From positions 62,001-126,000 of the forward strand of contig JAHHIL010000006.1 of the NCBI GenBank assembly GCA_019358975.1: a DNA stretch of 64,000 nt, written 5' to 3'. The translations under genes were made by a program, and so were the position numbers. Shown here one piece after another: positions 3,903-41,200 of the stretch. Numbering within the stretch: position 1 is the first letter of the stretch; the number at the start of each line of letters is the position of its first letter. Under the pieces are notes generated by a model. That model was given only the letters and a program-made list of their open reading frames with translations. It was not told the DNA's origin and searched no databases. Source of the DNA: Trichocoleus desertorum ATA4-8-CV12. Lineage in GTDB: Bacteria > Cyanobacteriota > Cyanobacteriia > FACHB-46.

Positions 3903-3928
3903 AACCCAACCTTAGAATTCGGTTTACC

Positions 3929-4303
3929 CTAACGGGAATCCGTTCCCTGGTTAGCTCCGCCTTCCACAGTAGCATTCGCTTCACCAGCTTCCGGCTTAGC
4001 AGTTTGCTTCGCGTTAGTCTTGGTGTCTTGTCCAGTTCTACGCTTAGCAGAGTCGAGAGTAGTGTTTCCACCGCCAGGTGCAGCAGGAACTCCCTGCTTC
4101 GCCTTAGCTTTTGGAGCTTCGATCTCTACGACTTCCTCGGTCGCAAAGTTATTGGTATTGACACCAGCGTAGTTAACCTTGTCAAAGCGAACGATGACTG
4201 GATACTTAATACCACTCTGGTCAATTGAGGCAACAGTGCCTACATCTTGGAACCAGAAGGATTCTTTACGGAGGATACGGACTTTAGAACCACGTTGAAC
4301 CAT
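3929..4303 (-). CDS. psaE: Photosystem I subunit IV PsaE, with long C-terminal extension
   Basis: 124 aa. PsaE is a stromal-side, SH3-like subunit of photosystem I that helps ferredoxin docking and cyclic electron flow. Residues 1 to about 67 match the family ([44 protein letters not shown]). Known cyanobacterial PsaE proteins usually end there at about 70-76 aa. This one continues for some 55 residues of Ala/Gly/Thr/Lys-rich, probably disordered sequence ending in [11 protein letters not shown], with no frameshift or alternative stop visible. The ATG at 4303 is clear; upstream AAGGA is rather distant. The short 104-bp gap to the previous gene must hold its promoter. fpg follows at 26 bp. Confidence 0.95.
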
Positions 4304-15678: not shown

Positions 15679-16263
15679 ATGAGTCTCAGTTTCAGCGACC
15701 TCTTCGAGGAAAGTTTTTACCTCGCCAATAACCCTGATGTTGCACAAGCAGTCCAAGCAGGTTCTTTTAGCAGCGGCTTCCAGCACTTTATTCAAGTTGG
15801 ACAATTTGAGCTCACCAGCGCTCCTAGCCGTGCTCCTAGCCCCTTGTTTAATGAAGCCTTCTACCTGGCTAATAACCCCGATGTAGCTGCTGCTGTCCAA
15901 GCAGGTTCTTTTAGCAGTGGCTTCCAGCACTTTATCGAAGCTGGTCAGTTTGAGCTGAGCGACAGCCCTACCCGCTTGCCCAGTCCCATCTTTGACGAGC
16001 TCTTCTATTTGTCCAACAACTTAGATGTTGTTGAAGCAGTTCGCAGTGGCACCTTCAGTAGCGGCTTTGAACACTTTGTTAGGTTTGGTCAGTTTGAAGT
16101 CGATTCGCGGTTTAGCCGCAATCCTAGCCTTCGCTATGACGAACGCTTCTACTTAGACCACAATCCTGACATTGCTGCTGCGGTTGCCAATGGTTCGTTT
16201 GCCAGCGGCTTCCGCCATTACATCTTGTTTGGGCAGGCGGAAGGCCGCAGTGCTGTTAACACT
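15679..16263 (+). repeat. Four N-terminal ~48-codon modules (gene 1)
   Basis: Four tandem copies of a module centred on FYLANNPDVAxAVQAG and SGFQHFIxxGQFE. The same four modules open the paralogue at 24840-25424. A 105-nt stretch (15832-15936) is identical to 24993-25097, including third codon positions, which points to recent duplication or gene conversion. Confidence 0.85.
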
Positions 16264-19200: not shown

Positions 19201-22200
19201 GATCTCACCGATAACGTGAGTGACGTGGATGGTGACGTTCTGACCTTTGCCACAGCAACCAATCCTAGAAATGGGGTAGTCGCTAACAATGGTGATGGGA
19301 CTTTCACCTACACGCCAAATGTTGACTTCTTTCGCAGTGATAGCTTTACCTACACGGTTAATGACGGTAGGGGAGGAACGGCTGCTTCTACAGTTGTAAT
19401 TACTGTGGATAATGTCAATGATGCACCAATAGCTCGCAACGATAGTTTTACAACTAGCGAAGATCCGGGTAGTGTCACTATTCCGAATGTCTTGGCTAAC
19501 GATACCGACGTTGATCGAAATCTCCTCTCTATATCAAGCAATAGTGACCCAACTAACGGCATTGTTGTTAATAACGGAGACGGCACTTTCTCGTACACGC
19601 CAAATGCCGAATTTAACGGCACCGACAGCTTTACTTATGTAGTTGATGACGGTCAAGGGGGTACGGCTGAAGCAACCGTTCTCCTAAGGGTCACACCTCT
19701 TAATGATGCACCGACAGCAACCGCTGAAGATGTCAGTACTGCTGAGGAAACCGCGATCGCGATCAACCTGCTAGATAATGCCAGCGATGTTGATGGTGAT
19801 CCACTAACGTTCTCCGTAGGGACTAACCCTAGAAACGGTACTGTTGTCAACAACAATAATGGAGTCTTTACTTACACACCAAGGCTCAACTTCTTCGGCA
19901 GTGATAGCTTCACCTACCGAGTCAATGACGGTAGAGGAGGTACTGCTTTCGCCACCGTTGGCATTAATGTAGGGGACATCAACGACTCACCAATTGCCAG
20001 AAATGACAGCTTCACAGGCAACGAAGATACAGCGTTCACTTTTAGCGTGGTCGCCAATGACACTGATATTGAAAGTGATGCGTTGACTGTCACTGAATTC
20101 ACAGAAGCTGCCAATGGTACCCTGACAAACAATAATGGCACCTTCATATATCAAGCCAATGAAAACTTCAATGGCTCTGATAGCTTCACCTATGTCATTG
20201 ACGATGGCCGAGGGGGCACAGCGACAGCATCTGTCAATCTCACCATTCGACCCGTTAATGACGCACCAGCAGCCAATAGTGATGAGCTAGTCACCAACGA
20301 AGACACCCTTGGCAACATCAATGTCCTAGTCAATGATAGCGACGTTGATGGCGATACATTTAGTGTCCTCAGCTTCACTCCAGCGACTCGCGGCACAGTC
20401 CGCAACCTTGGTAACGGTAATTTCTCCTATCAACCTCGAACTAACTTCAACGGCTCCGACAACTTCAGCTACACCATTCGCGATAGCAGAGGTGCTACTG
20501 CCACTAGCACTGTCAATGTCACTGTCAACTCGGTTAACGATGCGCCTATTGCTCGTAATGACAGCCTAACGATTAACGAGGATGCTGCAGCTACTCCTAT
20601 TAATATCCTCGTTAATGACACGGATGTTGATGGGGATGCACTGACTGTGATTAACTTCACAGAGGCTACCAAGGGAACCCTGCTCTTGGAGAATGGCGCC
20701 TTCAGCTATCAGCCGAATGCCAATGCTAATGGCACCGATAGCTTCACCTACATCATTGATGATGGTCAAGGCGGCTCTGCCAGTGCCACAGTAAACATCA
20801 CCATTCGCTCCCTCAACGATGCGCCTCTGGCAGCTAACGACAGCTTGACGCTGGACGAAGACACTCTAGGCAGAGTTAACGTCATTGCTAATGACACCGA
20901 TGCAGATAACACCTTCAGCGTCCTCAGCTTCACTCAAGCGGCTCGCGGCACGGTGAGGAACCTGGGCAATGGCAACTTCTCCTATCAACCTCTGACCAAC
21001 TTCAACGGTTCTGATAGCTTCACCTACACCGTCCGAGATGCAGCAGGAGCAACGGCCAATGCCACGGTCAGTGTCGGAGTCAACTCGATTAACGATGCCC
21101 CCATTGCTCGCAATGACACCCTGAGCATCAACGAGGATGCAGCTGTAACTCTAATTAATGTCATTGCCAATGACACCGATGTAGACCGTGACCCCCTCAC
21201 CATCGTCAGCTTCACTGATGCTGGCAAAGGCACCCTGATTGACAACGCCAACGGCACCTTCAGTTATCAGCCGAATGCCAATGCTAACGGCACCGATAGC
21301 TTCACCTACATCATTGATGATGGTCAAGGCGGCTCTGCCAGTGCCACAGTGAACCTCACCATTCGCTCCCTCAACGATGCGCCTCTGGCCGTCAATGATG
21401 CGCTGACCCTAGATGAAGACACCACAGGCAGCATCAACGTCATTGCCAATGACACCGATGCAGATAACACCTTCAGTGTCCTCAGCTTCACTCAAGCGGC
21501 TCGCGGTACGGTGAGAAACCTGGGCAATGGCAACTTCTCCTACCAGCCTCTGACCAACTTCAACGGCTCTGATAGCTTCACCTACACCGTCCGAGATGCA
21601 GCAGGAGCAACGGCCAATGCCACGGTCAGCGTCGGAGTCAACTCGATTAACGATGCCCCTATTGCTCGCAATAACACCCTGAGCATCAACGAGGATGCAG
21701 CTGTAACTCTGATTAATGTCATTGCCAATGACACAGATGTAGACCGTGACCCCCTCACCATCGTCAGCTTCACAGATGCTGGCAAGGGCACCCTGATTGA
21801 CAACGCCAACGGCACCTTCAGCTACCAGCCGAATGCCAATGCTAACGGCACCGACAGCTTCACCTACATCATTGATGATGGTCAAGGCGGCTCTGCCAGT
21901 GCCACGGTGAACCTCACCATTCGCTCCCTCAACGATGCGCCTCTGGCAGCTAACGACAGCTTGACGCTGGACGAAGACACTCTAGGCAGAGTTAACGTCA
22001 TTGCTAATGACACCGATGCAGATAACACCTTCAGCGTCCTCAGCTTCACTCAAGCGGCTCGCGGCACAGTCCGCAACCTTGGTAACGGTAATTTCTCCTA
22101 TCAACCTCTGACCAACTTCAACGGCTCTGATAGCTTCACCTACACCGTCCGAGATGCAGCAGGAGCAACGGCCAATGCCACGGTCAGCGTCGGAGTCAAC

Positions 22201-24839: not shown

Positions 24840-27800
24840 ATGAGTCTCAGTTTCAGCGACCTCTTCGAGGAAAGTTTTTATCTCGTCAACAACCCTGATG
24901 TTGCACAAGCAGTCCAAGCAGGTTTTTTTAGCAGTGGTTTTCAGCACTTCATCCAAGCTGGTCAGTTTGAACTCAGCAACAGCCCCAGCCGCGCTCCTAG
25001 CCCCTTGTTTAATGAAGCCTTCTACCTGGCTAATAACCCCGATGTAGCTGCTGCTGTCCAAGCAGGTTCTTTTAGCAGTGGCTTCCAGCACTTTATCCAA
25101 GCTGGTCAGTTTGAACTCAGCAACAGCCCTGCCCGCTTGCCCGGTCCCCTCTTTGACGAGCTCTTCTATTTGTCCAACAACTCGGATGTTGCAGAAGCAG
25201 TTCGCAGTGGCACCTTCAGTAGCGGCTTTGAACACTTTGTCAAGTTTGGTCAGTTTGAAGTCGATTCGCAGTTTAGCCGCAATCCTAGCCTTCGCTATGA
25301 CGAACGCTTCTACCTAGACCATAATCCTGACATTGCTGCTGCGGTTACCAATGGCTCTTTCGCGAGTGGCTTCCGCCATTATCTGCTCTTTGGCCAGCAG
25401 GAGCGCAGAAGTGCTGTCAATACCCCGCCTGTCATCGGTAGTGATAGTCTCACCGCCAACGAAGACACCCTGACCATCACCCCAAATCTCCTGGCCAACG
25501 ACACCGACCCCAATGGCGATCGCCTCATCATCTCTAGCTTTACTCAGCCTGGTAATGGAGTACTAGCCAGTAACGACAATGGAACATTCTCCTATACACC
25601 AAATTTAAACTACGAGGGAATTGATAGCTTTAGTTACACAGTGAGCGATGGCTATGGTGGTTTCGTCAGCAGCACCGTTAGCATCAGCATCAATCCCAGC
25701 CCAGACACGCCGGTTGCAGGTAACGATGCTTTTACCACAGACGAAGATACTCAACTTAGCTTCACAAGTAATCAGCTACTAAGTAACGATTTCGACCCTG
25801 AGAACGATCCCTTCTTTTTTAATAGCTTTACTCAGCCTACAAACGGTACTGTTGAAGGATTGGGTAATGGCACCTTCACCTACAATCCCAAGTCCAACTT
25901 CAACGGCACAGATAGTTTTACTTACACGATTACAGATGGTGACGGCACTACAGTCGCTGGCACCGTTAACCTCACTGTTCGTTCGATCAATGATGTGCCC
26001 ATAGCGGGTAATGATACTTTCACTACCGATGAGGATACGCGAGTCAGTTTCAGTCGAGCTACGTTGTTAAACAATGATACTGACGCTGATGGCAATCCTA
26101 TTTTAATTACAGGCTTTACTCAGCCTCTAAACGGTAGAGTCGTTGACCTTGGAGGCTCCTATACCTACACCCCCAATGCCAATTTCAACGGTTCTGATAG
26201 CTTCACCTACACCATTACAGATGGTCGGGGTGGTAATACAAGTGCGGTTGTCACTCTGAACGTTAACGCGATCAACGATGCACCGATCGCAGGTAACGAT
26301 ATCATTACGACAAATGAGGATACATCTGTTACCTTTAGTCGAGCAAACCTGTTATCTAATGACAGCGATGCTGACCAAGATACCCTTCTAATTACTAGCT
26401 TCTCCCAGCCAGGACGAGGCACGCTGGCGAGTAGTAATGGGACTCTTACATACACACCTACTGCCAACTTTAGTGGCAGTGATAGTTTTACTTATGTTGT
26501 TACCGATGGCAAAGGTAGTTCTACAACTGCTACCGTCGCCCTAGTCGTCAACTCAGTTCAAGATATTCCTGTTGCCAATAATGATGCATTCACGACCAGT
26601 GAAGACACAGAACTACTCATTAGTCCTAGTGATCTCCTTAGAAACGATAGTGATGCAGACCAACAGCAACTGCTAATTAATAGCTTTGGTCCAGCATTAA
26701 ATGGCGTCGTCAGGGATAACGGCAACCAAACCTTTACTTATACTCCAAGCCCTAATTTTAACGGTTCTGATAGCTTCACCTACACCATTACAGATGGTAG
26801 TGGTGGAACCGCAACCGCTACGGTCAACGTCAATGTTACGTCAGTCAACGATATTCCTGTTGCTAATAGTGACGCAGTCACCACGAATGAAGATTCGGTG
26901 GCTTTAATCACTAATGTACTGACTAACGATACAGATGCAGACCAAGACGCGATCGCAATTGTTAGCTTCACCCAGCCCAGTAGCGGCACAGTAGACAGTC
27001 GCAACAACGGCTCATTTAATTACATACCTAATCCTGACTTCAACGGCTCTGATAGCTTCACCTACACCATCAGTGATGGCAGGGGAGGCAGTACCACTGG
27101 CGTTGTCAACATCACTGTTAACGCGGTGAACGACCCACCCATTGCCCTCAACGATACAGCAAGTACCGCTGAAGACACACAGGTCACAATTGTCAATGTC
27201 TTAGCCAACGATAGTGACATTGAGGGTAATACCTTTTTCCTCACCAGTAGTACCTCAGCTGCTAATGGTCAGCTCATTGATCAGGGGAATGGCACCTTCC
27301 GATACACCCCCAACACCAACTTCAACGGCTCTGACAGCTTCACCTACACTATTACAGATAGCAACGGCGGCTCTGCTTCTGCCACAGTCAACATCACTGT
27401 TAGCGCGGTGAACGACCCACCCATTGCCCTCAACGATACGGCAAGCACCACTGAGGACACTGTTGTCACCATCCCTGTCCTGACAAATGACACCGATGCT
27501 GAAGGCAATGCTCTCACGATTGACAACTTCTCCACTCCGACCCAAGGCAGCTTGAGCCAAAGTAACGGCGTCTTCACTTACACGCCCAATGCCAATGCCA
27601 ACGGCTCTGATAGCTTCACCTACACCATCAGTGATGGCAATGGTGGAACCGCCTCTGCCACGGTCAGTGTCACCATCACCCCGGTCAATGATGCTCCCAT
27701 TGCCATCAGCGATACGGCAAGCACCACTGAGGACACTGTTGTCACCATTCCTGTCCTAACGAATGACACCGATGTCGAAGGTAATGCCCTCTCGATTACA

Positions 27801-29795
27801 GGAGTCTCTGTCAATCCCACTCTTGGCTCTGTGGTCAACAACAACGGCGTCTTCATCTACACCCCCAATGCCAATGCCAACGGCTCTGATAGCTTCACCT
27901 ACACCATCAGTGATGGCAATGGTGGAACCGCCTCTGCCACGGTCAATGTCACCATCACCCCGGTCAATGATGCTCCCATTGCCATCAGCGATGCTGTCAG
28001 CACTAATGAAGACACTGTTGTTACCATCCCTGTCCTGACGAATGACACCGATGCTGAAGGCAATACCCTCACGATTGACAACTTCTCCACTCCGGCCAAA
28101 GGCAGCCTGAGCCAAAACAACGGGGTCTTCACTTACACCCCAACTGCCAATGCTAACGGCTCTGATAGCTTCACCTACACCATCAGTGATGGCAATAGTG
28201 GAACCGCCTCAGCCACGGTCAATGTCACCATCACCCCGGTCAATGATGCTCCCATTGCCATCAGCGATGCTGTCAGCACTAATGAGGACACTGTTGTCAC
28301 CATTCCTGTCCTAACGAATGACACCGATGTCGAAGGTAATGCCCTCTCGATTACAGGAGTCTCTGTCAATCCCACTCTTGGCTCTGTGGTCAACAACAAC
28401 GGCGTCTTCATCTACACCCCCAATGCCAATGCCAACGGCTCTGATAGCTTCACCTACACCATCAGTGATGGCAATGGTGGAACCGCCTCTGCCACGGTCA
28501 ATGTCACCATCACCCCGGTCAATGATGCTCCCATTGCCATCAGCGATGCTGTCAGCACTAATGAAGACACTGTTGTTACCATCCCTGTCCTGACGAATGA
28601 CACCGATGCTGAAGGCAATACCCTCACGATTGACAACTTCTCCACTCCGGCCAAAGGCAGCCTGAGCCAAAACAACGGGGTCTTCACTTACACCCCAACT
28701 GCCAATGCTAACGGCTCTGATAGCTTCACCTACACCATCAGTGATGGCAATAGTGGAACCGCCTCAGCCACGGTCAATGTCACCATCACCCCGGTCAATG
28801 ATGCTCCCATTGCCATCAGCGATGCTGTCAGCACTAATGAAGACACCATTGTCACGATCGCGGCTCTAGCTAACGACATTGATGTCGAGGGTAATGCTCT
28901 CTCAATTACCGGAAATACTAATCCTGTTCATGGCTCTGTTATCAGCAACAACGGTACCTTCCGCTATACCCCGACAACCAACTTCAATGGTTCTGACAGC
29001 TTCACCTACACCATCAGTGATGGTAACGGCGGGACCGCCTCTGCCACGGTCAATGTCACCATCACCCCCGTCAATGATTTGCCCAAAGCTCTAGGTGATC
29101 TACTTGTAGTCGCTGCTCCTACATCAACCTCGATTAGTCCTGCTGCCTTGCTGGCCAATGATACGGATGTGGATGGTGTGCTCACGATCGCTAGCGTGAC
29201 TCAACCGTCACGCGGTAGTTTAACCACCAATTCGGATGGTACGTACACCTACAACCCAAGCGCTAACTTCAACGGTAATGACAGCTTCACTTACATTGTC
29301 AGCGATGGTGCAGGTGGAACTGCTTCAGCAACCGTGAATCTAATTGTGGCTCAGGCTCTTGATGCTGGCTTCTCTGTGGCCCCTAACTCCAATATCACCA
29401 ATTCGACAACCATTCCTCATGCCTCGGTTGAAGCCATAGGAGATAACAACTTCGACTACTACTCATTCACGGCTACAGCAGGTTCTCAAGGGATTTTCGA
29501 CATCGACTTTGGCGATCGCGGTGGTACTGCTGCTTTAGATACGGAAATCTTCCTGTTCGACGGCAACGGCACCCTTCTGTCCACCAATGATGATGCGACT
29601 ACAGCCGATCCTGGTAGCAGTTCCATCAACGACTCATTCTTGACTTACAACTTCACGTCCTCTGGTCGTTATGTCATTGGTGTTGCCAAATTTGACTCAA
29701 CCAATACCATTGGAGTTGGCATTACAGGAACCCCACTGACACCCAACGATAGCTACACGCTCCATGTTTCAGTTCAAAACCCCACCATTGCTTAG
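24840..29795 (+). CDS. Tandem-95 (cadherin/Ig-like) repeat surface protein, 1651 aa, paralogue
   Basis: Same architecture as the preceding giant gene, on a smaller scale: four ~48-residue N-terminal modules (1-195), 14 tandem-95 domains (about 200-1505) and a C-terminal PPC-like domain (FDYYSFTATAGS, DTEIFLFDGNG, RYVIGVAKFDS). The first ~195 codons and about 25 bp upstream of the ATG, including the stretch GCTTCAGTAGGTAAATTGC, are nearly identical to those of the first gene, while the repeat arrays and C-termini have diverged. The gap between the genes is 212 bp and contains a terminator, so each is probably transcribed from its own promoter. Neither a signal peptide nor RTX repeats are visible. 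Function as an adhesin or sheath/matrix component is inference. Confidence 0.92.
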   Translation: MSLSFSDLFEESFYLVNNPDVAQAVQAGFFSSGFQHFIQAGQFELSNSPSRAPSPLFNEAFYLANNPDVAAAVQAGSFSSGFQHFIQAGQFELSNSPARLPGPLFDELFYLSNNSDVAEAVRSGTFSSGFEHFVKFGQFEVDSQFSRNPSLRYDERFYLDHNPDIAAAVTNGSFASGFRHYLLFGQQERRSAVNTPPVIGSDSLTANEDTLTITPNLLANDTDPNGDRLIISSFTQPGNGVLASNDNGTFSYTPNLNYEGIDSFSYTVSDGYGGFVSSTVSISINPSPDTPVAGNDAFTTDEDTQLSFTSNQLLSNDFDPENDPFFFNSFTQPTNGTVEGLGNGTFTYNPKSNFNGTDSFTYTITDGDGTTVAGTVNLTVRSINDVPIAGNDTFTTDEDTRVSFSRATLLNNDTDADGNPILITGFTQPLNGRVVDLGGSYTYTPNANFNGSDSFTYTITDGRGGNTSAVVTLNVNAINDAPIAGNDIITTNEDTSVTFSRANLLSNDSDADQDTLLITSFSQPGRGTLASSNGTLTYTPTANFSGSDSFTYVVTDGKGSSTTATVALVVNSVQDIPVANNDAFTTSEDTELLISPSDLLRNDSDADQQQLLINSFGPALNGVVRDNGNQTFTYTPSPNFNGSDSFTYTITDGSGGTATATVNVNVTSVNDIPVANSDAVTTNEDSVALITNVLTNDTDADQDAIAIVSFTQPSSGTVDSRNNGSFNYIPNPDFNGSDSFTYTISDGRGGSTTGVVNITVNAVNDPPIALNDTASTAEDTQVTIVNVLANDSDIEGNTFFLTSSTSAANGQLIDQGNGTFRYTPNTNFNGSDSFTYTITDSNGGSASATVNITVSAVNDPPIALNDTASTTEDTVVTIPVLTNDTDAEGNALTIDNFSTPTQGSLSQSNGVFTYTPNANANGSDSFTYTISDGNGGTASATVSVTITPVNDAPIAISDTASTTEDTVVTIPVLTNDTDVEGNALSITGVSVNPTLGSVVNNNGVFIYTPNANANGSDSFTYTISDGNGGTASATVNVTITPVNDAPIAISDAVSTNEDTVVTIPVLTNDTDAEGNTLTIDNFSTPAKGSLSQNNGVFTYTPTANANGSDSFTYTISDGNSGTASATVNVTITPVNDAPIAISDAVSTNEDTVVTIPVLTNDTDVEGNALSITGVSVNPTLGSVVNNNGVFIYTPNANANGSDSFTYTISDGNGGTASATVNVTITPVNDAPIAISDAVSTNEDTVVTIPVLTNDTDAEGNTLTIDNFSTPAKGSLSQNNGVFTYTPTANANGSDSFTYTISDGNSGTASATVNVTITPVNDAPIAISDAVSTNEDTIVTIAALANDIDVEGNALSITGNTNPVHGSVISNNGTFRYTPTTNFNGSDSFTYTISDGNGGTASATVNVTITPVNDLPKALGDLLVVAAPTSTSISPAALLANDTDVDGVLTIASVTQPSRGSLTTNSDGTYTYNPSANFNGNDSFTYIVSDGAGGTASATVNLIVAQALDAGFSVAPNSNITNSTTIPHASVEAIGDNNFDYYSFTATAGSQGIFDIDFGDRGGTAALDTEIFLFDGNGTLLSTNDDATTADPGSSSINDSFLTYNFTSSGRYVIGVAKFDSTNTIGVGITGTPLTPNDSYTLHVSVQNPTIA
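27728..28840 (+). repeat. Perfect tandem duplication, period 555 bp
   Basis: The block 27728-28285 is repeated without a visible mismatch at 28283-28840 (period 555 bp, two tandem-95 domains per unit). Identity ends sharply on both sides, at 27727/28282 and 28286/28841. This indicates a very recent unequal exchange inside the second repeat gene. Confidence 0.9.
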
Positions 29796-29863
29796 ATAGA
29801 AGCATTGACAAAGCTAGCTCACTCCAACTTACTTCCTCGCAGATGTCGGGTTGGCTGTGATTT

Positions 29864-29909
29864 TTAAAAGCAAGAGAGGTGTGGACTGCCACACCTCTCT
29901 TGCTTTTAA
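29864..29909 (+). terminator. 21-bp perfect hairpin after second repeat gene
   Basis: Arms 29864-29884 and 29889-29909 are perfectly complementary (21 bp) around a 4-nt loop, with an A/T-rich base so that the stem ends in TTTTAA. It lies 69 bp after the stop codon and can act in both directions. A strong transcription terminator is the likely role. Confidence 0.8.
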
Positions 29910-30044
29910 GGCAACCAGAGCAAGAGGTAAATTTAGATCAGAAAATTAAGCATTTTCTACCCAGACAATCCAGAGCAAGGGTTGGTAAGATGAATATAAA
30001 GCGGAATCATTCCGGAATTTAGCCCTAATTGTGAGCATACGTTC

Positions 30045-30608
30045 ATGACTTCTGAGGTTCTTGTCGAAAAGAAAAAGTTAGATAGTCCGCCTTTAGAGAT
30101 TCACCATCTTGGCGATCGCGTCTTGCGTCAGCCAGCGAAGCGGATCAACAAAGTGGATGCAGAAATCCGTGAATTGGTTCGTGAGATGCTGCAAACGATG
30201 TATAGCGCTGACGGGATTGGGTTAGCGGCTCCTCAAGTGGCTGTGCAGAAACAGCTGATTGTGATCGATTGTGAACCAGACGACCCCACTAACCAACCGC
30301 TAATTTTGATCAACCCCAGCGTTAAGCATATGGGTCGCGATATCTGTGTGGCTCAAGAAGGCTGCCTCAGCATTCCAGGAGTTTATTTGGATGTTAAGCG
30401 GCCTGCTGCGGTCGAGGTATCTTATAAAGACGAGTACGGACGGCCCCAAAAGCTTAGCGCGACAGGTCTGCTTGCTCGCGCCATTCAACATGAAATGGAT
30501 CACTTAAATGGTGTGTTATTTGTAGATCGTGTCGAGAATGGTCTCGCTCTGAATCAAGAGTTGGCTAAGCATGGTTTCTCAGCCCAAGCTGTCAAGCCTA
30601 TGGCTTAG
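30045..30608 (+). CDS. def: Peptide deformylase
   Basis: 187 aa. It removes the formyl group from the N-terminal methionine of nascent proteins. All three family motifs are present: GIGLAAPQVA (motif 1), QEGCLSIPG with the metal-binding cysteine (motif 2), and IQHEMDHLNGVLF with the HExxH metal site (motif 3). The N-terminal ~20 residues are variable. The upstream gene is the second repeat protein behind a strong terminator, so def probably has its own promoter. Confidence 0.96.
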   Translation: MTSEVLVEKKKLDSPPLEIHHLGDRVLRQPAKRINKVDAEIRELVREMLQTMYSADGIGLAAPQVAVQKQLIVIDCEPDDPTNQPLILINPSVKHMGRDICVAQEGCLSIPGVYLDVKRPAAVEVSYKDEYGRPQKLSATGLLARAIQHEMDHLNGVLFVDRVENGLALNQELAKHGFSAQAVKPMA

Positions 30609-30779
30609 TGTGATTGGCTAAATTCGGAAATGATTCTGGAGGGGTGGTGCTTAGATAGCTGGGAATTTCTCAAGGACTATCCACAGGCCATCCCTAGATT
30701 TCTTAAACACGCTTTAAGCATAGAGTGGCTAATTGCCTCTATTCTTGACTATTGACGCTTAATTAAAGGTGGGACAGCA

Positions 30780-30974
30780 TTGACCCCTAAAAGTGGTGTA
30801 TTCCTAGGCGGTTCTTGTGTAGCGGCGATCGCTGCCGTCGGTTCTGTATTTGAGCTAGCTTCTGGCAAACCAGACCTAGGCGGGCTAATTACAGGAGTCA
30901 TTCTGGCTATTAGCATCCCGTTAACGGCCATATTTTTCTTGGCAGCGGTGCGAGATGCCAGAGCAAACCAGTAA
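30780..30974 (+). CDS. Small membrane protein, unknown function
   Basis: 64 aa from a TTG start at 30780, supported by AAAGGTGGG some 8-14 nt upstream. There are two predicted membrane segments: VFLGGSCVAAIAAVGSVFEL (about 7-26) and LITGVILAISIPLTAIFFLA (about 36-55). They are separated by a short loop with KPDLGG and followed by a basic tail (RDARANQ). I do not recognise the family. It lies 47 bp upstream of the FHA-PrsW gene on the same strand and could be co-transcribed with it. Confidence 0.65.
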   Translation: MTPKSGVFLGGSCVAAIAAVGSVFELASGKPDLGGLITGVILAISIPLTAIFFLAAVRDARANQ

Positions 30975-31021
30975 AAGTGTGGCAAGATATGCCTAGCTGC
31001 TAAAATCCAGCCCTTCTGACG

Positions 31022-32407
31022 ATGACGGGTCAAGATCCTTACGTCGCTTTCCTCTGGCAAGTTCCTCCTCTAGGTTCAACAGAACGAAACTCTCCTTGCT
31101 ACCCGTTGTCGCGCACTGAGTCAGTGACAGTTGGGCGTGATCCCTATTGTCAAATTATTTTAGACTCCAATCTTTTTGGGATGGTTTCGCGGCGTCACGC
31201 CCAAATCCGCCCTATTCTAAATCTTAGAACTCAGACTAGAGAACCCGTCTGGGAGATTTGCGATCTCAACAGCGCCAATGGCACTTATCTGAATGGGCAA
31301 CGATTGCAAAGTTGCCAGATCATGCAGATTGGCGATCGCATTACCCTTGGCAACAATGGGCCAGATTTTGTCTTTGAGTGCCACCGCGTTGAGCCTCCAG
31401 TCGCCTCTCGCTTTGCAGTTACTTCATACGGCAGTTCTGCACCGCGTCAATCTGCTCATGCAGCGACAGTACCGCCTGCCAGAGGTGCTCAACTGACCCC
31501 AGCAGATTCAGTCACTTTGACCCAGCTCTTTCCCATTCTTTCTACTGGAAAAGAGCTAGCCCGCAAAGCTTACCTTGTTCCTGGCATCATTACCGTCGGC
31601 TTTGTCGTCTTGATGTTTGCAGCGGTTGGTCAGCCCATCGCCTTCAATCTACTGCTAGCTACCTATCTAGTAGGAGTGGCTTATTATCTCGTTTACCAAC
31701 TCTGTGGTAAGCGCAAACCTTGGTGGGTTTTGTTTGGCGCTCTCGGCATTATGGTGTTGATTTTACGTAGCCCCATTTTGTCTACGTTTATCGTCTTTTT
31801 CCGACAAGTTCTGCCGGGTCATCTTCCTACCCCAAATGAACCTGTAGGCTTCTTTAGACTCATAATCAGCATGTTTTTTGGCGCAGGCTTGATGGAAGAA
31901 CTGCTGAAAGCTTTACCAGTTTTAACGGCTTACTGGCTTGGTCGGTTGGTGCGATCGCCTTGGCGCGAACAAATCGGAGTTTGGGAGCCACTCGATGGCA
32001 TTTTGCTGGGCACTGCTGCTGCCGCCGGATTTACGCTAGTGGAAACGTTGGGCCAATATGTTCCAGAAATTGAGCAGCAATCGGGTTCCTTGGAAGGACT
32101 ACAACTTCTAATTCCAAGAGTGCTCGGCTCTGTAGCAGGCCATATTGCCTACAGTGGCTACTTAGGCTATTTCATTGGGCTGAGTGTGCTCAAGCCGAGA
32201 AAGCGTTGGTCTATTTTGGGAATTGGCTACCTGAGCGCAGCCATCCTTCATGCTCTATGGAATGCTGCTGGCACGATTAACGCTTTGTTGCTCATGATCG
32301 TCGGTGTCGTGTCTTATGCTTTTTTAGCAGCAGCAATCCTGAAAGCTCGCCAATTATCACCCACCCGCTCCCAAAATTTTGCCACTCGACTTTCCAATTC
32401 CTCTTAA
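31022..32407 (+). CDS. FHA domain fused to a PrsW-family intramembrane protease
   Basis: 461 aa. An N-terminal FHA domain (about 25-120) has the phosphothreonine-binding signature VGRDPYCQI, MVSRRHAQI and NSANGTYLNG. After a linker come about eight hydrophobic segments (185-440) forming a PrsW/CPBP-type glutamic intramembrane protease: MEELLKALP (E292/E293, K296), FTLVE (E341), GHIAYSG (H374) and LHALWN (H410). PrsW cleaves anti-sigma factors in Bacillus; this fusion would couple proteolysis to recognition of a phosphorylated partner, which is inference. The gene converges on a CHAT-FHA / PP2C operon (32645-37625), suggesting a shared phospho-dependent pathway. Confidence 0.88.
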   Translation: MTGQDPYVAFLWQVPPLGSTERNSPCYPLSRTESVTVGRDPYCQIILDSNLFGMVSRRHAQIRPILNLRTQTREPVWEICDLNSANGTYLNGQRLQSCQIMQIGDRITLGNNGPDFVFECHRVEPPVASRFAVTSYGSSAPRQSAHAATVPPARGAQLTPADSVTLTQLFPILSTGKELARKAYLVPGIITVGFVVLMFAAVGQPIAFNLLLATYLVGVAYYLVYQLCGKRKPWWVLFGALGIMVLILRSPILSTFIVFFRQVLPGHLPTPNEPVGFFRLIISMFFGAGLMEELLKALPVLTAYWLGRLVRSPWREQIGVWEPLDGILLGTAAAAGFTLVETLGQYVPEIEQQSGSLEGLQLLIPRVLGSVAGHIAYSGYLGYFIGLSVLKPRKRWSILGIGYLSAAILHALWNAAGTINALLLMIVGVVSYAFLAAAILKARQLSPTRSQNFATRLSNSS

Positions 32408-32644
32408 TGTTTCTCTTACACCTTCAGCGATCGCATGGATAACTAAGTCCAGCACCTGTTTGCAGCTTGAATCAGCTTCGAGAAAGCTTAGACAAGACCT
32501 TAAACCCCTACACCCCTACACCCTGTACCTTTCTGGCTCAGTTCGCCCAGTTGGGCGATGATGCAATCAGGCGAGGATGGTTGAATATAATTATTGAAAG
32601 CAACTTTTTATACCCAAAAACAGCGGAGCTTGTTGATGCTTAGA

Positions 32645-33262
32645 CTATTGCTCACCATCCTCATCAGCTTCAGTGCTATTAGTTTGGTGCAGTTGGGCCA
32701 AAGCACATCGAGCGATCGCCAAGCTCAGGCGGGCCTGTTCTAGTTCCGATAGCTCTTCCCAACTCAAGGGTCGCACTGATTGAAGCGTAGATTCCACAAC
32801 CTGAGCAGTTTCTGTTTCTACACCCCGCATCGCATAGGCCAATGGACGCGCCAAAACCTGCAGGTCATCGACATTCCAATCGGGTAGACTTTCCTGCACA
32901 CACTGAATCAATTGGTCAGCCAGGGACAAATTGCTTGCTACTACCTTTTGAGCTTGCTGCACGATCGCGTTTAGTACACTTTGGGGTGCCCAAGCTGCGA
33001 AGCGCTGCGACAAAGCAGTTTGAGCCCAAATTCCGTCCAAACGAGCAAAGAAATCTTGCGATCGCTGAGCTATTTCTTCATCTAGCCAGCTATCCAAGGA
33101 AAACTCTTGCTCTAATTTCTCTATATAAGTGGCAGAGGCTGGGTCTGTGAAATCCCAGGGGTAAGGCGTGTCAGTACTCAGGACAGCATCTAGCAAGTCG
33201 TCTAGCTCGACTTGAAATTGAGAATGTTCAAAATAATCTGATGACATAGTTCCGTTTCTCAT
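32645..33262 (-). CDS. Conserved-looking hypothetical protein, acidic, helical
   Basis: 205 aa from the ATG at 33262, chosen because AGGAG lies 7 nt upstream; a second ATG 5 codons later has no such site. The protein is acidic, mostly helical by composition and has no membrane segment. Recognisable blocks are YPWDFTDP, SLDSWLDEEIAQRSQDFF, and the C-terminal LSWEELSELEQARLSLAIAR. I do not recognise a domain. It is the last gene of the minus-strand group PP2C phosphatase, CHAT-FHA protease, this gene (about 87 bp after the CHAT gene stop), so it may be a substrate, adaptor or regulator of that group. No function is claimed. Confidence 0.75.
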   Translation of the reverse strand: MRNGTMSSDYFEHSQFQVELDDLLDAVLSTDTPYPWDFTDPASATYIEKLEQEFSLDSWLDEEIAQRSQDFFARLDGIWAQTALSQRFAAWAPQSVLNAIVQQAQKVVASNLSLADQLIQCVQESLPDWNVDDLQVLARPLAYAMRGVETETAQVVESTLQSVRPLSWEELSELEQARLSLAIARCALAQLHQTNSTEADEDGEQ

Positions 33263-33349
33263 CGTGCTACTCCTGATTGCATTTGACGTGGGTAGCTACA
33301 CGCCGATTTTTGAGAGTTCCGCAAGCAATTACAATTTAAGCCAATTGGC

Positions 33350-35020
33350 TTAGAAGTTGTGTTCCCCTAAAGTTAGAGACTCATGTTCAACCAAAAACTC
33401 TACCGCCTCCCCCTTAGGATTGCCAAATTTTAGCTGAACTCCAGAGTTTAAAGAGACTTCCTGTTGATGGATTTTTTGCCAACCATTGGCTCCCAAAACC
33501 AGAGTGCCAAACCGAGAAAAATCTCTGAGGAAATAGGATGGCTGACTATTAGCATCATTGGAAGCGTCTCGGTAGAAAATTTCGGCATGATAACGAGATA
33601 CACCAGGTTCCGGTAATACCAAATCGTTGTCTTCCTTGCTACCAACTTGAATTCTGCCGTCTCGAACTGGCCACTTTTTTGCAGGGGGTCCGACTCGTCG
33701 CAGCGATGCCATCGGAATTCGGGCTGGAATGTCGCTTGGCCCTGGGGGTGGCAGCATTGTGTTCTCTTCGGGCTTAATCAACTGACCATCAAACTGCGGA
33801 TGCATGTACAGCACAGGCAGAGTCCAGGCAGGTTGATTAAACTTATAAAGCATCAAAAGATGCTGTCTAGCCAAGGCAACGGCTCGGTCAACGGGTTGGC
33901 GTTCTCGTAATGCTTGGGCCAGTGCTTGGATAAAGCTGAGGGCTTCTTGATCCGTAATCGAGTCACGCATGCCCAAGACCGCCGGAACTCCATGATGAAT
34001 CAGGACTTCTGCCAAGCTGCTGCGAGGAATCGGTTGCTGGTTTGTGTGGTCGGGTTGGGCTCCCCAACAAGCATTAAACACTGCCAGAATGACACCACGA
34101 CGGGTTAACACTTGAGCTAGTTCTGTTCCACTCAGGGTCGTTCCAGGACTTAATAAGAGCAACCCACCGTCGGGTGCTGGAGTCCCGTGCCCTGCATAAA
34201 AGAAAATGTTGTAATTTCCGGTCTCTAAACGCTCAATCAGTTCTGCTGAGGTTGGCTGAATCAAAGTATCTACTTGAGGCAGATCGGGAACAATTCGTCC
34301 TCCCATCGAGCTAGGGGCTTCGTACCGAGTCAAGATATGGACTAAAGTTTCAGCTTCTTGTTCTAGATCTAGCGCCGGGGATGCAGCTCTGTTGTCAGCC
34401 TTAACCGCAGCCCGGTCAGACAGTGTTTCGGTTTCTTGCCCCAAAACTAATAGGATTTTCAGCGATCGATCGAGGCGTAGAGGCGGCAGGGGCTCTACAT
34501 CACTGGTTGTGCGGCTGAACAAGAGATGTTCACTATTGAGGGCGATCGCGGGCTTACCCATTTGCGATTGCATAATTTCCCAAGGCAGGGCGATCAGCTC
34601 AGGCGCTTGAATTTCTAGCCGTAATTGCAACCGCCCTCCCAAGCCAAAAGCAGCTCCTTGACTCCGATTGAAATTCGCTTCGATTGGGCCATTAAATAGC
34701 CATTGCCACAAACTGACACCCAAATGCTGCATCAACCGCGCCCCGTAGGGCAAGGCGTTAGAATCGGGGGGCAATACAAATGGGGGCGTCGGTGACAGGG
34801 GCGTCGCTGAGAGGTGAGGCACTTGGGGCAGCCCCCGGAGGGAAAACATTTCCTGCCAAGCATGCCAAGTTTGAGACAGTGCATCAGGCCAAACGCGATC
34901 GTGGAGAACGTACCCGCTCGGATACGGAGCGTTTGTCACCCAAATTGCATACCGATTCGCCTCTAAAGCATCTAGGCGTCTAATGGCTAAGCTGAGGCAG
35001 AGAGTTCCTGACACAGGCAT
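33350..35020 (-). CDS. CHAT-domain (caspase-like) protein with C-terminal FHA domain
   Basis: 556 aa. A variable N-terminal region (1-180) is followed by a CHAT domain (about 185-410), a clan CD cysteine peptidase fold. The His is in NIFFYAGHGTPAPDGG (H278) and the Cys in LAVFNACWGAQ (C318), so the catalytic dyad is intact; VPAVLGMRDSITDQEA follows as in other CHAT proteins. After a Pro-rich linker comes an FHA domain (about 455-545) with IQVGSKEDNDLVLP, VSRYHAEIFY and a degenerate final loop (SRFGTLVLG). It lies 94 bp downstream of the PP2C phosphatase gene on the same strand. A phosphothreonine-guided protease is the natural reading but is untested. Confidence 0.9.
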   Translation of the reverse strand: MPVSGTLCLSLAIRRLDALEANRYAIWVTNAPYPSGYVLHDRVWPDALSQTWHAWQEMFSLRGLPQVPHLSATPLSPTPPFVLPPDSNALPYGARLMQHLGVSLWQWLFNGPIEANFNRSQGAAFGLGGRLQLRLEIQAPELIALPWEIMQSQMGKPAIALNSEHLLFSRTTSDVEPLPPLRLDRSLKILLVLGQETETLSDRAAVKADNRAASPALDLEQEAETLVHILTRYEAPSSMGGRIVPDLPQVDTLIQPTSAELIERLETGNYNIFFYAGHGTPAPDGGLLLLSPGTTLSGTELAQVLTRRGVILAVFNACWGAQPDHTNQQPIPRSSLAEVLIHHGVPAVLGMRDSITDQEALSFIQALAQALRERQPVDRAVALARQHLLMLYKFNQPAWTLPVLYMHPQFDGQLIKPEENTMLPPPGPSDIPARIPMASLRRVGPPAKKWPVRDGRIQVGSKEDNDLVLPEPGVSRYHAEIFYRDASNDANSQPSYFLRDFSRFGTLVLGANGWQKIHQQEVSLNSGVQLKFGNPKGEAVEFLVEHESLTLGEHNF

Positions 35021-35114
35021 TCAAAATCTTAAGTTATCAGAACCTGAGCGATCGCTAGTTTTCTTATCAGTCTATCTGGTCTTGTGGTGTAGTAGCCCTC
35101 TTGCAAAATTCCAT

Positions 35115-37625
35115 TTAATCTGGGATAGCTGACGGGCTGAGTTCCTCTGTCGGGGTCGGGGGAGAAGCTGGCGTGGTCTGCGTACAGGCTCCTAACTGAT
35201 TCGGTTGAAGTGTAGCGCTGGGTATAATTAGCGGCGTTAAAACTGCTTCTTCAATCCAGCCACTTTCCCCAGGTGCCAAGAAGCGATCGCTCGTAGGGGA
35301 TGGAGTTGCGGGAACTGTAGCTGGAGTTCTGGGACTAGGAGTTGCGGGGACTGGAGCCGTGCTGGCATTAGAACTCGCATCGCTAGAAGGTGAGCAAAAT
35401 TTTAGTCTGACCCAACTGCCTTGAGCCGGAATCACCTGTTTACTCAGGACTTGCAGCGTCCCACCGACAGGTACTAATCGAGCTGTTGTGGCAGTAGAGG
35501 GGCGATCGCCAGATGCAGTGGTAAAGCTGCCGGGTTGAGGCTGTAGTTCTATCGCTTCAGGCCCACTCTGATTGGGTAGCTGATTGGGTAGCTGATTGGG
35601 TAGTTCAGACCTGTTGGCCTGCCGAATTTGCACCAAAGTCCCTGGAGACAGAAGGAGCGGTGGGGAGTTAGGCGGGGAGTTAGGCGCAGCAATGGTAGCA
35701 ATCGGATCTGGACTCACAGCCGTAGTATCTGGTTGAGGTTCCCAGCCTAACAATGTATCCACGCGACGACTCACACCTGGTAGCAGTAGGTAAGCTAAAA
35801 CACCACCCAAACCTGCAAGCAGCAGAATTCCCAGGAGCAGAGCTGCTGCATTCTGGGAGCGTTGAGGTGGCAAGATTTGAGTTTTGAGGGTGGAAGGTGC
35901 CGTAGCAGTTGGAGTGGGCGGCTCAACCGCGATCGCCGTTTGGGTTAACTCTCTATCCTGAATTGGCTCCCTAAGAGGAGGGACTTCTAGTTCTAGTGGC
36001 TCCGTCAGCAAAGACTCTGGCAATTCAGCGATCGCCTCGCTATGAGTGACGTGATAGTAAAGCATCCCCACGGTGACGTTGTCGTGACCGTTCCGCATAT
36101 TGCCAATCTCAACTAATCTTTGGCAAGCAGTGGCTACATCAACCTTGCCATCTAAAATTGGCAAAATTTCGCTTTCCCAATATTCTTCGACACGATCGTT
36201 GTCACTCAAGCCATCGGAACAGAGCAGGAAGACCCCTGCTTCATCTAGCATGAAACGCTGTACGGTGGGATGTAAGGTCGCGGAACTACTCATGCCTAGA
36301 GCTTGTACAAGCGAACCTGCGACTGGTTGGTGTACGGCATCTCGATACAAGGCATAGCCTAAGCGCACTTCTCGCGAAGCCACGTCATCGTCTACGGTGA
36401 TTTGGTAGCAGCCTGTGCGAGTGATCCAATAAACTCGGCTGTCACCAATATGAGTGATATAGATTTCATGACCACGGGCTAGCGCCATCACAAGGGTTGT
36501 CCCCATACGCTGGCGATCGGTCCGTCTTTCCTGATCGTTGCGCTGGCAAATTAAGTCATTGGCGATGCAAACAGACTGCTCTAGTTCTGCCATCAAGTTA
36601 TCTGGTTGCTGCAAAACCACGTCAATTTCTAGCGCCTGAATGCGTTCCTGAATCGCCGCGATCGTCAGATTAGAAGCAACATCACCGCCTTCGTGACCTC
36701 CGATTCCGTCACATACCAAGGTTAAGGTTTTATGGGCTTCGCCGGGATGCAGGGGCACTGAAAGAGCAGTTCCACTGGCAGGGTAGCAGGCATCTTCGTT
36801 GCGCTGGCGGCTGGGGCCTTGATCGGTGCGGGTAGCAATCTGAGCTAAGCGAGCTTGCGATCGCCCACAGACCGTTAGCCCTCGATCCAGTTGCGCCATT
36901 AACTGTTCGGGCGTACGAATCTGCCTTTGAATCATTTGATGGCATAGAGCTGCCAAGAAACGTGCAATCTCAGGCCGAGCGGTAGGTGCCCATTGCAACC
37001 AAAGCTGTCCCAGTTGCATCAAGGTAGGAGCTGCTTTGCGATCGCTTTGAAGTTCTAGCAAACGGACGAGCGGCCCCTCCACTCGCAGTAGTTGCGGTTC
37101 CAGCAAGCTTGAAGCGACCCCCTCACTGCTGAATGGTTGCCACAGTTGGGCTATTTGCCATAACCAATTGAGCTGTCGCAGTGGCGTTGCCTCTGACCAA
37201 GCATTCGCTAGAGATGGAAAGAGCGGATCAGATAGTTTGGCTGCATTTTGGCTCAGCTCTCTGCTGTTAATCGGCGCTTGCTCTAACAGCACGACAGCGG
37301 CTCCCTTATCTGTCTGCACCTGTCCATAGACTTGAGGAATATGCAGTTGATAGGGAAACAACCTCAGGTAAGAGGCGATCGCCGCCGAAATATCACTAGG
37401 CAGATCTGGCAGCAGCCCCGGCTTCGTATCAAACAGAACTCGGCGACCTTTGAGCACATAGCGATCGCCTAATATATCCCCTATTTGATAGGTATCAACG
37501 CTGGTTCCTACAGCCCAAAGATACCGTTTGGGCAAAGCAGAGCGGCATTGTTGGCAAAAGTTATGGGTCTCCGCATTAAGCGTCTGACAAACGGGGCAAT
37601 AAATTGGTGCCGTAGCATGGTTCAT
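35115..37625 (-). CDS. Zinc-ribbon / pseudokinase / PP2C phosphatase, membrane-anchored
   Basis: 836 aa. Residues 10-27 form a zinc ribbon (CPVC...CQQC). Residues 50-245 resemble a protein-kinase fold lacking the catalytic loop and metal-binding motifs: a YVLKGRRVLFD strand and a VVLLEQAPIN hinge are visible, but no HRDxK or DFG, so it is probably a pseudokinase. Residues 261-525 are a complete PP2C domain: RQRNEDA, VCDGIGGHEGGD, MGTTLVMA, HIGDSRVYW, LLCSDGLSDN and RNGHDNVTV, with all metal-binding aspartates. A Pro/Thr linker, one membrane segment (about 593-615) and a Ser/Pro-rich tail with short repeats (LPNQ x3) follow. It is first in a group with the CHAT-FHA gene. Confidence 0.88.
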   Translation of the reverse strand: MNHATAPIYCPVCQTLNAETHNFCQQCRSALPKRYLWAVGTSVDTYQIGDILGDRYVLKGRRVLFDTKPGLLPDLPSDISAAIASYLRLFPYQLHIPQVYGQVQTDKGAAVVLLEQAPINSRELSQNAAKLSDPLFPSLANAWSEATPLRQLNWLWQIAQLWQPFSSEGVASSLLEPQLLRVEGPLVRLLELQSDRKAAPTLMQLGQLWLQWAPTARPEIARFLAALCHQMIQRQIRTPEQLMAQLDRGLTVCGRSQARLAQIATRTDQGPSRQRNEDACYPASGTALSVPLHPGEAHKTLTLVCDGIGGHEGGDVASNLTIAAIQERIQALEIDVVLQQPDNLMAELEQSVCIANDLICQRNDQERRTDRQRMGTTLVMALARGHEIYITHIGDSRVYWITRTGCYQITVDDDVASREVRLGYALYRDAVHQPVAGSLVQALGMSSSATLHPTVQRFMLDEAGVFLLCSDGLSDNDRVEEYWESEILPILDGKVDVATACQRLVEIGNMRNGHDNVTVGMLYYHVTHSEAIAELPESLLTEPLELEVPPLREPIQDRELTQTAIAVEPPTPTATAPSTLKTQILPPQRSQNAAALLLGILLLAGLGGVLAYLLLPGVSRRVDTLLGWEPQPDTTAVSPDPIATIAAPNSPPNSPPLLLSPGTLVQIRQANRSELPNQLPNQLPNQSGPEAIELQPQPGSFTTASGDRPSTATTARLVPVGGTLQVLSKQVIPAQGSWVRLKFCSPSSDASSNASTAPVPATPSPRTPATVPATPSPTSDRFLAPGESGWIEEAVLTPLIIPSATLQPNQLGACTQTTPASPPTPTEELSPSAIPD

Positions 37626-38241
37626 GAATGGTCCTCATCGGAGCCGCCAAAGGGCACAGCCATAATTTGTGGGACTAGCTGTTGCTATGGATTGTAGCGT
37701 CTGACTTCCACTAGATTAGCTGTTTTTAGGCTAAGTGCCTCCACATCCCCCACCCTGCCGCGAACACAAGGACGATCACCACAACTCATTATGCGGGATT
37801 GATTACTCATCCTGGCAGAAACAGCAACTATATATGAACTAGCGAATTAGAGCTGAGTTCCGTAGAACTTCACTAAAGACAGAAGACAGGAGCCGCCTCA
37901 CTTTATACCTTGTTACTTAGATATTAAAAATCCGATGAATAATTCATTAATTAAAGACCATGAAGAATCAATGCATCCACTGGGTTGACTGGTAGCAGCA
38001 TCTTTATTCGCAGCACCGACCGTTCTACAGCCAATTGTCCTAGCTTTATAACCATTACTGTTTCCACCCCAGATTGGCTACTAAGTCACTAGAGTTTGAG
38101 ACCTTCACTCGAACTCCAGTTAGCTTGCGAATAGGCATCATTCTCAATTTTTTATGACTTTTGTGCCTTCACAAATCGTCTGTACCTTCGTAGGTGCCTC
38201 TGAAATGATCCAACTTCCCTTGCTACCGCCTGTACAGAAAA
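37626..38241. other. Divergent intergenic region
   Basis: About 616 bp between the divergently oriented PP2C gene and the hybrid kinase gene. Short plus-strand ORFs exist (e.g. from 38154) but are frame shadows around the kinase start with no recognisable features. No tRNA or structured RNA seen. Confidence 0.55.
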
Positions 38242-41200
38242 ATGCTGCTAGTCAACCGCTCATTACTACTGCGCTATGGGATTGCTGTTCTAGGAGTGGC
38301 AGTCGCTTTACTTCTGCAATCCCCACTATCTCATCTCTTAGAGTCACAAATTCCCCTTCTACTCCTCTTTAGTGTTGTTATTGGCAGTGCCTGGTACGGC
38401 GGCTTCGGCCCAGGAATGGTGGCCACTCTTTTAGCTACGATTAGCTGTGCCTATTTTTACGTATCACCATTTCCCTTTTTCACTAATCTAGCTTCAGAGC
38501 CAACCATTGAGTTAGGACTGTTTGCCTTAGAGGGAGCTTTAATCAGTTTACTGAGTGCCCAGTTACATACGGCGCAAAAGCGGACAGAAGTGTCGTGGCT
38601 CAGGTCAAAGCAGCATCAGGAAACACTGCGTCGGAGTGAAGAACAGTATCGCCTGCTAGTAGAAAATGTCAAAGATTACGCCATATTCATGCTCGATACG
38701 CGGGGGCGGGTCACTAGTTGGAGCCTTGGGGCTGAGCGCATTTTAGGCTACCAGGAAGCTGAAATTTTAGAGCAGCATTTTTCTTGCTTTTTTACCACCG
38801 AAGATGTGCAACAGGCGCAGCCAGACCAGGAATTAAAGCAAGCGATCGCCGAAGATCGAGCCGAAGATGAGCGTTGGCACGTGCGGAAAGATGGTAGCCG
38901 CTTTTATACGAGTGGAATCACGACTGCGTTGCGCGATCGCTTTGGGCAACTCCAAGGCTTTTCTAAGCTCATGCGCGACATGACCGAGCGCAAACAAGCC
39001 GAAGAAGCACTCCAGCAAGCCCATGATCGCTTAGAGACAGAGGTAATCAACCGGACCTCTGAGCTTTCGGAAGCTAATGTAGCCCTCCAAGCCCAAATTG
39101 CGGAGCGCTTACGCACAGAAGCTTGGTTGCGGAATGATGCCGAGCGACTGGCAGCCATTATTGACACCCAGCATGACATTGCCACCGCAGAACTCGATTT
39201 GTTGCGAGTCATGACTTTAATTGCGGAACGAACCCAAAAAATCACCTCTGCTACAGGTGCAGTAATTTTGTTGCCCAACGGCAATGACATGGTCTATAGA
39301 GTCGCTAGCGGTACGGCAGCTCCCCACACGGGCTTGCGGGTCAGCATAGATTCCAGCCTTTCAGGGCAGTGCTTCCGGACGGGCGAAATTTTGCGCTGTG
39401 ACAATGCCGAAAACGACCCTCGCATCAACCATGAGGTTTATCATCACGTCGGAGCCCGCTCCATGATTGCCGTGCCTCTACGCTATGAGCGTAGAATTTC
39501 GGGAGTTCTAAAGGTTTTATCTTCCGAGGTCAACGCCTTTAGCGACCAGGATGCTCACACACTGCGGTTAATGGCAGGCTTTATTGCAGCAGCTGTGATG
39601 CACGCGGCTGAATTTGAAGCTCGACAAGCAATGGTCGTAGAACACACGATTGCCCTTACAGCTCTGCGGGAAAGCGAAGAGCGCTTTAAAGGAGCCTTTC
39701 ATGATTCAGCGGTAGGAATGGCTTTGATCGCCACAGATGGCCGATTCTTACAAGTGAATCGCTCCCTTTGCCAAATACTGGGTTATGCAGAGTCCGATCT
39801 GCTCAATACCAACTTTCAAGCCGTCACTCACCCAGAGGATCTGGACAGAAGTCTGACCTTTGTCTGCCAAATGCTGACTGGAGAGATTCAGTCGTATGAG
39901 ATGGAAAAGCGCTACTTCCACAAGCAAGGGCAGATCGTTTGGGTTTTGCTTAATGTATCCCTGGTGCACAACTCTCAAGGCGAGCCTGTACACTTTATTG
40001 CCCAGATTCAAGACATTACAGAACGTAAGCAAGCAGAAGAAGAACGAGCCCAGCTGATCTCTGAGCAAGCGGCGCGTGCAGTGGCCGAAGCAGCCGAACA
40101 ACGCTCAACATTTCTGGCAGAAGCCAGCGCTGTCCTAGCTTCCTCTCTGGACTATGAAGCAACGCTGATCAGCCTTGCCCGCTTGGCAGTGCCTTATCTG
40201 GCTGATGTATGTGTCATCGACATGATGGAAGACGAAAAATCTCTGCGCCCTCTCACTGTCGCCCACATTGATCCTTACAAAGAAAATTTAGCGCGGCAAC
40301 TCCAGCAATATTCGCCTCTGCGACTCAACCACTTACGTCCTGTATTCGAAGTCTTACAGACAGGAGAATCACAACTGTTGGAGCATGTTTCAGAAGCAGC
40401 GATCGCCACCTCAACAGATGATCCTGACTATTTACGACTGATTCGATCGCTCTGTCCCAAATCTGTGATGATTGTGCCTCTGATGGCAGCAGGGCGAATC
40501 ATCGGCATCATTTCCTTTGCCACTTCTGAATCAGAGCGACGTTACAACACCATTGACTTAACGCTAGCTGAAGATTTAGCTCGTCGGGCGGCGTTAGCAG
40601 TAGACAACGCCAGACTCTACAAAGAAGCTCAGGATGCGAACCGGATGAAAGATGAGTTTCTGGCTACCCTTTCCCATGAGTTACGGACCCCCTTAAATTC
40701 AATTCTGGGTTGGTCCCGACTGCTGACCAACCGCAAGTTTGATGAAACCACCACGACTAAAGCTTTAGAAACGATTGAGCGTAACGCCCAATCCCAAGCC
40801 CAGTTGGTTGAAGATATTTTGGATGTCTCACGAATTGTGCAAGGCAAGTTGCAATTGCAGGTGCGGCCTGTGGAATTACTGGCTGTGATCGAAGCCGCCA
40901 CAGATGCCGTGCGCCCTGCTGCCGAGGCCAAAGCCATCAGCTTAAAGTCTCGGTTAAATGGGGTAGGCAGTCACGTCCTAGGAGACCCCGATCGCCTGCA
41001 ACAGATTGTCTGGAATTTGTTGTCCAATGCGATTAAGTTCACCCCTAGAGGAGGTCAAGTCGAAATTAGCCTGGAGCCTACAGATACCTGGATTCAAATT
41101 CAAGTGACAGATACAGGTCAAGGCATCCATCCCGAATTTCTGCCCCACGTCTTCGATCGCTTTCGCCAAGCAGACAGCACCAGTACACGATCGTATGGCG

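Follow-up and report, generated by a model that had tools for sequence, protein, structure and literature searches.

Gene content of the locus

The window analysed here is a 64,000-nucleotide stretch of the genome of Trichocoleus desertorum ATA4-8-CV12. The locus of interest within it is organized in two units. An operon on the minus strand encodes a PP2C phosphatase, a CHAT-FHA protease and p205, and a plus-strand group that begins with def and continues with p64 and FHA-PrsW converges on this operon (Table 1). The list of open reading frames and Pfam searches bear out the five genes of the preliminary description, including the two FHA-protease fusions and a PP2C with a weak zinc ribbon.

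Table 1. Features of the locus and its surroundings, in window coordinates
Feature	Coordinates	Strand	Length	Basis
PP2C, membrane phosphatase	35115..37625	-	836 aa	Pfam PP2C 3e-12
CHAT-FHA, caspase-like protease	33350..35020	-	556 aa	Pfam CHAT 1.4e-21, FHA 4e-12
p205, acidic soluble protein	32645..33262	-	205 aa	without known family
FHA-PrsW, intramembrane protease	31022..32407	+	461 aa	Pfam FHA 2e-16, PrsW 7e-37
p64, small membrane protein with two transmembrane segments, TTG start	30780..30974	+	64 aa	ORF list
def, peptide deformylase	30045..30608	+		domain search
Perfect palindrome	33337-33352		16 bp	TAAGCCAATTGGCTTA
Cadherin/Ig-like repeat protein	24840-29795		1651 aa	
Six repeats within the 1651-aa protein	27303-29078		276 bp each	83% matches
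Neighbouring repeat protein	15679-24627		2982 aa	28 cadherin/Ig-like domains

No structured RNA was found in 29700-38300, and in a simple scan the count of promoter-like sites was not above expectation. The palindrome covers the 3´ end of the CHAT-FHA gene and the gap ahead of p205, and in a simple scan it resembles a terminator on both strands. The two large repeat proteins in the same window have similar 48-aa repeats at their starts.

Conservation and linkage in cyanobacteria

Each protein was searched in 242 cyanobacterial genomes, one per species, and the gene positions were tabulated. Full-type CHAT-FHA is present in 115 genomes, and p205 in 114 of these. The p205 gene lies at most 3 kb downstream of CHAT-FHA on the same strand in 93 of the 114 genomes and elsewhere in the assembly in the other 21. 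The best PP2C match is upstream of CHAT-FHA on the same strand in 78/99 genomes, and FHA-PrsW is convergent to CHAT-FHA within 3 kb in 47 of the 86 genomes compared. When linked on the same strand, the order is fixed (93/93 for p205 and 78/78 for PP2C), and PP2C, CHAT-FHA, p205 and FHA-PrsW all fall within 5 kb in 37 genomes. Across 80 named loci, mostly from filamentous genera (Nostoc, Microcoleus, Okeania, Trichodesmium, Leptolyngbya), the gene order is identical wherever the genes are close. PP2C, CHAT-FHA and p205 thus form a conserved operon. These frequencies argue against the accidental adjacency that unlinked homologues in related genomes would have indicated.

The only families that recur within 10 kb in more than 20 loci are the cluster genes themselves, def, ndhM and a generic histidine-kinase/regulator cluster. 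ndhM, identified by eye from its sequence, lies upstream of PP2C in 26 loci, and because it recurs there, some of the conserved adjacency is plain synteny.

Co-inheritance of CHAT-FHA and p205

Among the 242 genomes, 114 have both CHAT-FHA and p205, one has CHAT-FHA alone and two have p205 alone (phi 0.975, a coefficient that, like the others given here, ignores kinship and is inflated by shared ancestry). The strength of the pairing lies in its being kept across many families and in the 21 genomes in which the two genes are unlinked. This strongly supports the earlier suggestion that the 205-aa protein is a dedicated partner of the CHAT protease. Since the presence profiles separate the parts, CHAT-FHA and p205 make up the core of the system, and PP2C is an operon partner of wider distribution.

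The three exceptions can be described individually. In G181, the sole genome with CHAT-FHA and no p205, only 133 bases separate the end of the CHAT gene from a contig edge. In G037, which has p205 alone, the 711 bp that lie between the PP2C and p205 genes keep a remnant of the C-terminal FHA domain of CHAT-FHA (46% over 48 aa, E 4e-8), and an otherwise invariant Met of p205 is changed. This stretch (C16:52500-60000, positions 3234-3944) reads as what is left of a decayed CHAT-FHA gene, with PP2C and p205 intact on either side; G037 is also without a HetR or HetF match, as if its filament gene set were being lost. In G020, the other genome with p205 alone, the matched protein lacks the p205 invariants and is either distant or unrelated. 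This 323-aa protein (C1:442000-445000, positions 797-1768) is weakly similar to p205 (25%, E 2e-8), has a C-terminal extension and is a possible distant relative; G020 is a HetR/HetF genome without CHAT-FHA. The absence of CHAT-FHA, p205 and a linked PP2C from a further genome, G121, was discarded as a case of joint loss; FHA-PrsW lies there at a contig edge.

HetR and HetF are markers of filamentous cyanobacteria, and CHAT-FHA tracks both. It is shared by 110 of the 121 genomes with HetR (phi 0.87) and by 111 of the 121 with HetF (phi 0.89). Six genomes with HetR and HetF, all from one family, are without CHAT-FHA, and two genomes have CHAT-FHA with HetR and HetF both absent.

The CHAT-FHA protease

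CHAT-FHA combines a CHAT domain with the His-Cys dyad of CHAT proteases, and the dyad (H277/C317) is invariant in 59/59 orthologues. It occurs in one copy per genome and is near-fixed across families. Residues 99-416 match the HetF model NF045509 (E 5e-41) with 140.8 bits, below a cut-off of 1200 bits that likely HetF proteins of most other families also fail to reach. Because likely HetFs miss this cut-off too, the assignment of CHAT-FHA as a HetF paralogue is based on the separate HetF match in each genome and on the FHA fusion. The Trichocoleus genome has its own separate HetF match (at C14).

The phosphothreonine pocket of the FHA domain is degenerate. Among the 59 orthologues, the Arg of the GR motif is kept in 46 and SxxH in all, but the Asn of S-x-N-G-T in only one; the other 58 have Tyr, Phe, Trp or Cys at this position. 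The window protein has S460 for the Arg and F503 for the Asn and so departs from a canonical phosphothreonine-binding domain. This weakens the earlier idea of phospho-gating through the FHA domain of CHAT. With the pocket degenerate and no conserved Thr in p205 (see below), canonical phosphothreonine control of CHAT via its FHA domain or via p205 is unsupported by sequence.

The p205 protein

p205 has a pI of 4.05 and no transmembrane segment. It is predicted to be all-helical with a mean pLDDT of 79; the N-terminus is of low confidence and residues 90-140 are predicted best. Among 70 relatives, 13 residues are invariant, and the conserved motifs are Y-P-W-N-P and, towards the C-terminus, DLxVLARPxAYAMR ... 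LSExEQARLSLAIARYA. The former, at residues 33-37, reads YPWDF in the window protein. No Thr column is conserved in at least 40% of the relatives. Pfam gave chance matches only across the 70 members, and NCBIfam, PADLOC and sequence searches of the PDB gave no match. Foldseek returned nothing under E 0.19, the best Z of 6.1 in VIA-align is inside the noise for helical proteins, and there is no paralogue within the genome. p205 may be a substrate, an inhibitor, an adaptor or a scaffold of CHAT-FHA.

The PP2C phosphatase

PP2C consists of a four-Cys zinc ribbon (residues 9-26), an unassigned kinase-like region (about 35-255), the PP2C domain (257-526), a transmembrane segment (about 596-614) and a C-terminal segment. 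The zinc ribbon is a weak Pfam match with its four Cys invariant in 34/34 orthologues. The metal-binding Asp residues are likewise invariant (34/34), and the model of residues 257-526 matches tPphA/Stp1 with a Z of 24, as befits a PP2C phosphatase. For the N-terminal region, a pseudokinase in the preliminary description, the predicted order of secondary-structure elements is compatible with a kinase, hhalign against nine kinases of the same genome gave a probability of 0.5%, which is not significant, and matches to the PP2C domain took up the whole fold search. Cys 743 and 813, after the transmembrane segment, are invariant (34/34) in a region that appears SH3-like by eye and matched no Pfam model.

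The family has a long class of about 700-860 aa, which includes the window protein, the CHAT-linked members and others, and a short class of about 630-680 aa. A strict tie of PP2C to CHAT-FHA was rejected, as long-type relatives occur in genomes lacking CHAT, e.g., G126, and the coupling between the two is for this reason loose.

FHA-PrsW and p64

FHA-PrsW has the residues of a PrsW intramembrane protease (E292, E293, K296, H374 and H410), invariant in 31/31 orthologues. Together with the CHAT dyad and the PP2C metal ligands, this agrees with the preliminary description, which had called the catalytic residues of proteases and phosphatase intact. The score against the NCBIfam equivalog model is 21.9 for a cut-off of 225. 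The FHA domain is canonical, with the GR Arg, SxxH and the N-G-T Asn kept in all 31. The presence of FHA-PrsW is nearly independent of that of CHAT-FHA (phi 0.27): 63 genomes have FHA-PrsW without CHAT-FHA, and in one large family, with 25 genomes carrying CHAT and p205, only two have PrsW. FHA-PrsW is therefore a convergent, optional neighbour and no core part of the system, and the single two-protease pathway suggested earlier finds no support in its distribution. FHA-PrsW fusions are already on record as one of the architectures of signalling peptidases (PMC3482391). The cyanobacterial protein shares the fusion, described there without partner or function, and the convergent neighbourhood is seen only in these cyanobacteria.

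p64, with its two transmembrane segments, often lies between def and FHA-PrsW. No Pfam or NCBIfam model fits, and the existence of relatives in other genera, with identities reaching 81%, indicates that it is a real gene. It occurs in 211/242 genomes and is missing mostly from the smallest ones, so that p64, proposed earlier as a substrate of the pathway, was rejected as a dedicated substrate.

Discussion

We lean towards the view, with modest confidence, that multicellular cyanobacteria have in the PP2C-CHAT-FHA-p205 operon a regulated proteolytic switch, in which p205 is the dedicated partner, PP2C acts upstream and FHA-PrsW is separate. CHAT-FHA, a HetF paralogue, is predicted from its intact residues to be an active His/Cys protease. 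p205 would most likely be cleaved by this protease, or keep it inactive as long as no signal is received. The membrane PP2C, presumably transcribed with the pair, would control how far some component acting ahead of the protease is phosphorylated, and the optional membrane protease FHA-PrsW would merely happen to face the operon from an ancestral position. The switch may serve the growth of filaments or their differentiation.

A less probable variant is that p205 is not cleaved and serves as an activator, adaptor or scaffold that brings CHAT-FHA to other substrates, e.g., divisome or envelope proteins. Most of p205 is a conserved helical fold, with 13 invariant residues, and this fits such a role, since in a protein that is only cleaved, conservation away from the cut site could be lower; p205 also persists in G037 after the loss of CHAT. 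The p205 of G037, however, already carries a change at an invariant site, and the low-confidence N-terminal stretch with its isolated conserved Y-P-W-N-P is what a cleavable linker could look like. We consider improbable a single phospho-gated pathway with one kinase/PP2C signal that is read by the two FHA proteases alike and with p205 or p64 as substrate. The four large genes do lie within 5 kb in 37 genomes, the FHA domain of FHA-PrsW is fully canonical and the genome has 36 kinase-domain matches, but the two proteases are distributed almost independently, p64 is too widespread, the FHA domain of CHAT is degenerate and p205 has no conserved Thr. From this proposal, made in the preliminary description, the adjacency and the 205-aa CHAT partner are supported; the second protease and the 64-aa substrate are not, and the gating by the CHAT FHA domain is weakened.

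CHAT proteases also function in conflict systems, Craspase among them, and filamentous cyanobacteria carry CHAT genes in their conflict islands (PMC12691664). In Craspase, the TPR-CHAT protein Csx29 acts on a partner protein (PMC10028731), much as proposed here for CHAT-FHA, which differs in having no CRISPR effector, no TPR and a CHAT domain of another subfamily. An anti-phage or cell-suicide function nevertheless appears very unlikely, given the near-fixed, single-copy presence across families, ordinary neighbours such as ndhM, an operon without a killing effector and no PADLOC family match (best SAVED_CHAT, E 0.028, 11 bits).

The closest parallel to the proposed proteolytic switch is HetF (alr3546)-PatU3 of Anabaena. 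HetF can cleave PatU3, which regulates differentiation and division negatively, and so limits it (PMC12288457). CHAT-FHA shares the CHAT subfamily and nearly the same genome set, but is a separate, shorter paralogue with a C-terminal FHA domain and with p205 as partner in its own operon. Whereas HetF can cleave a specific partner, CHAT-FHA and p205 are connected here through co-inheritance.

The window PP2C is probably the orthologue of PrpJ (all1731) of Anabaena, judging by its distribution and by gene numbers in the literature. The prpJ mutant of Anabaena is without the major heterocyst glycolipid and fails in heterocyst maturation (PMC6161253). PrpJ is a PP2C of the plasma membrane, and a pair of similar PP2Cs, PrpJ1 and PrpJ2, has been described, comparable to the two membrane PP2C classes found in this study. 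In spacing and strand, all1731-all1730-all1729 agree with PP2C-CHAT-p205, from which we infer by gene order that CHAT-FHA would be all1730 and p205 would be all1729, a gene listed as filament-specific (PMC2821919). A search of the open literature found no paper that names all1730 or a CHAT-FHA/PP2C operon. One tentative possibility, which we hold to be rather doubtful, is a second pathway parallel to that of HetF, in which an envelope-sensing PP2C (PrpJ) controls cleavage of the filament-specific p205 and hence a step in filament growth or differentiation.

In conclusion, the near-universal pairing of CHAT-FHA and p205 in the sampled multicellular cyanobacteria suggests that filamentous life is linked to a proteolytic switch not described so far. 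Few genes are common to filamentous cyanobacteria yet absent from most unicellular ones, and the present analysis adds a protease and its tightly co-inherited partner to this filament-associated set. If the assignment by gene number is true, CHAT-FHA and p205 are placed downstream of PrpJ, and the PrpJ phenotype may be exerted through these two proteins, on a route parallel to HetF-PatU3.
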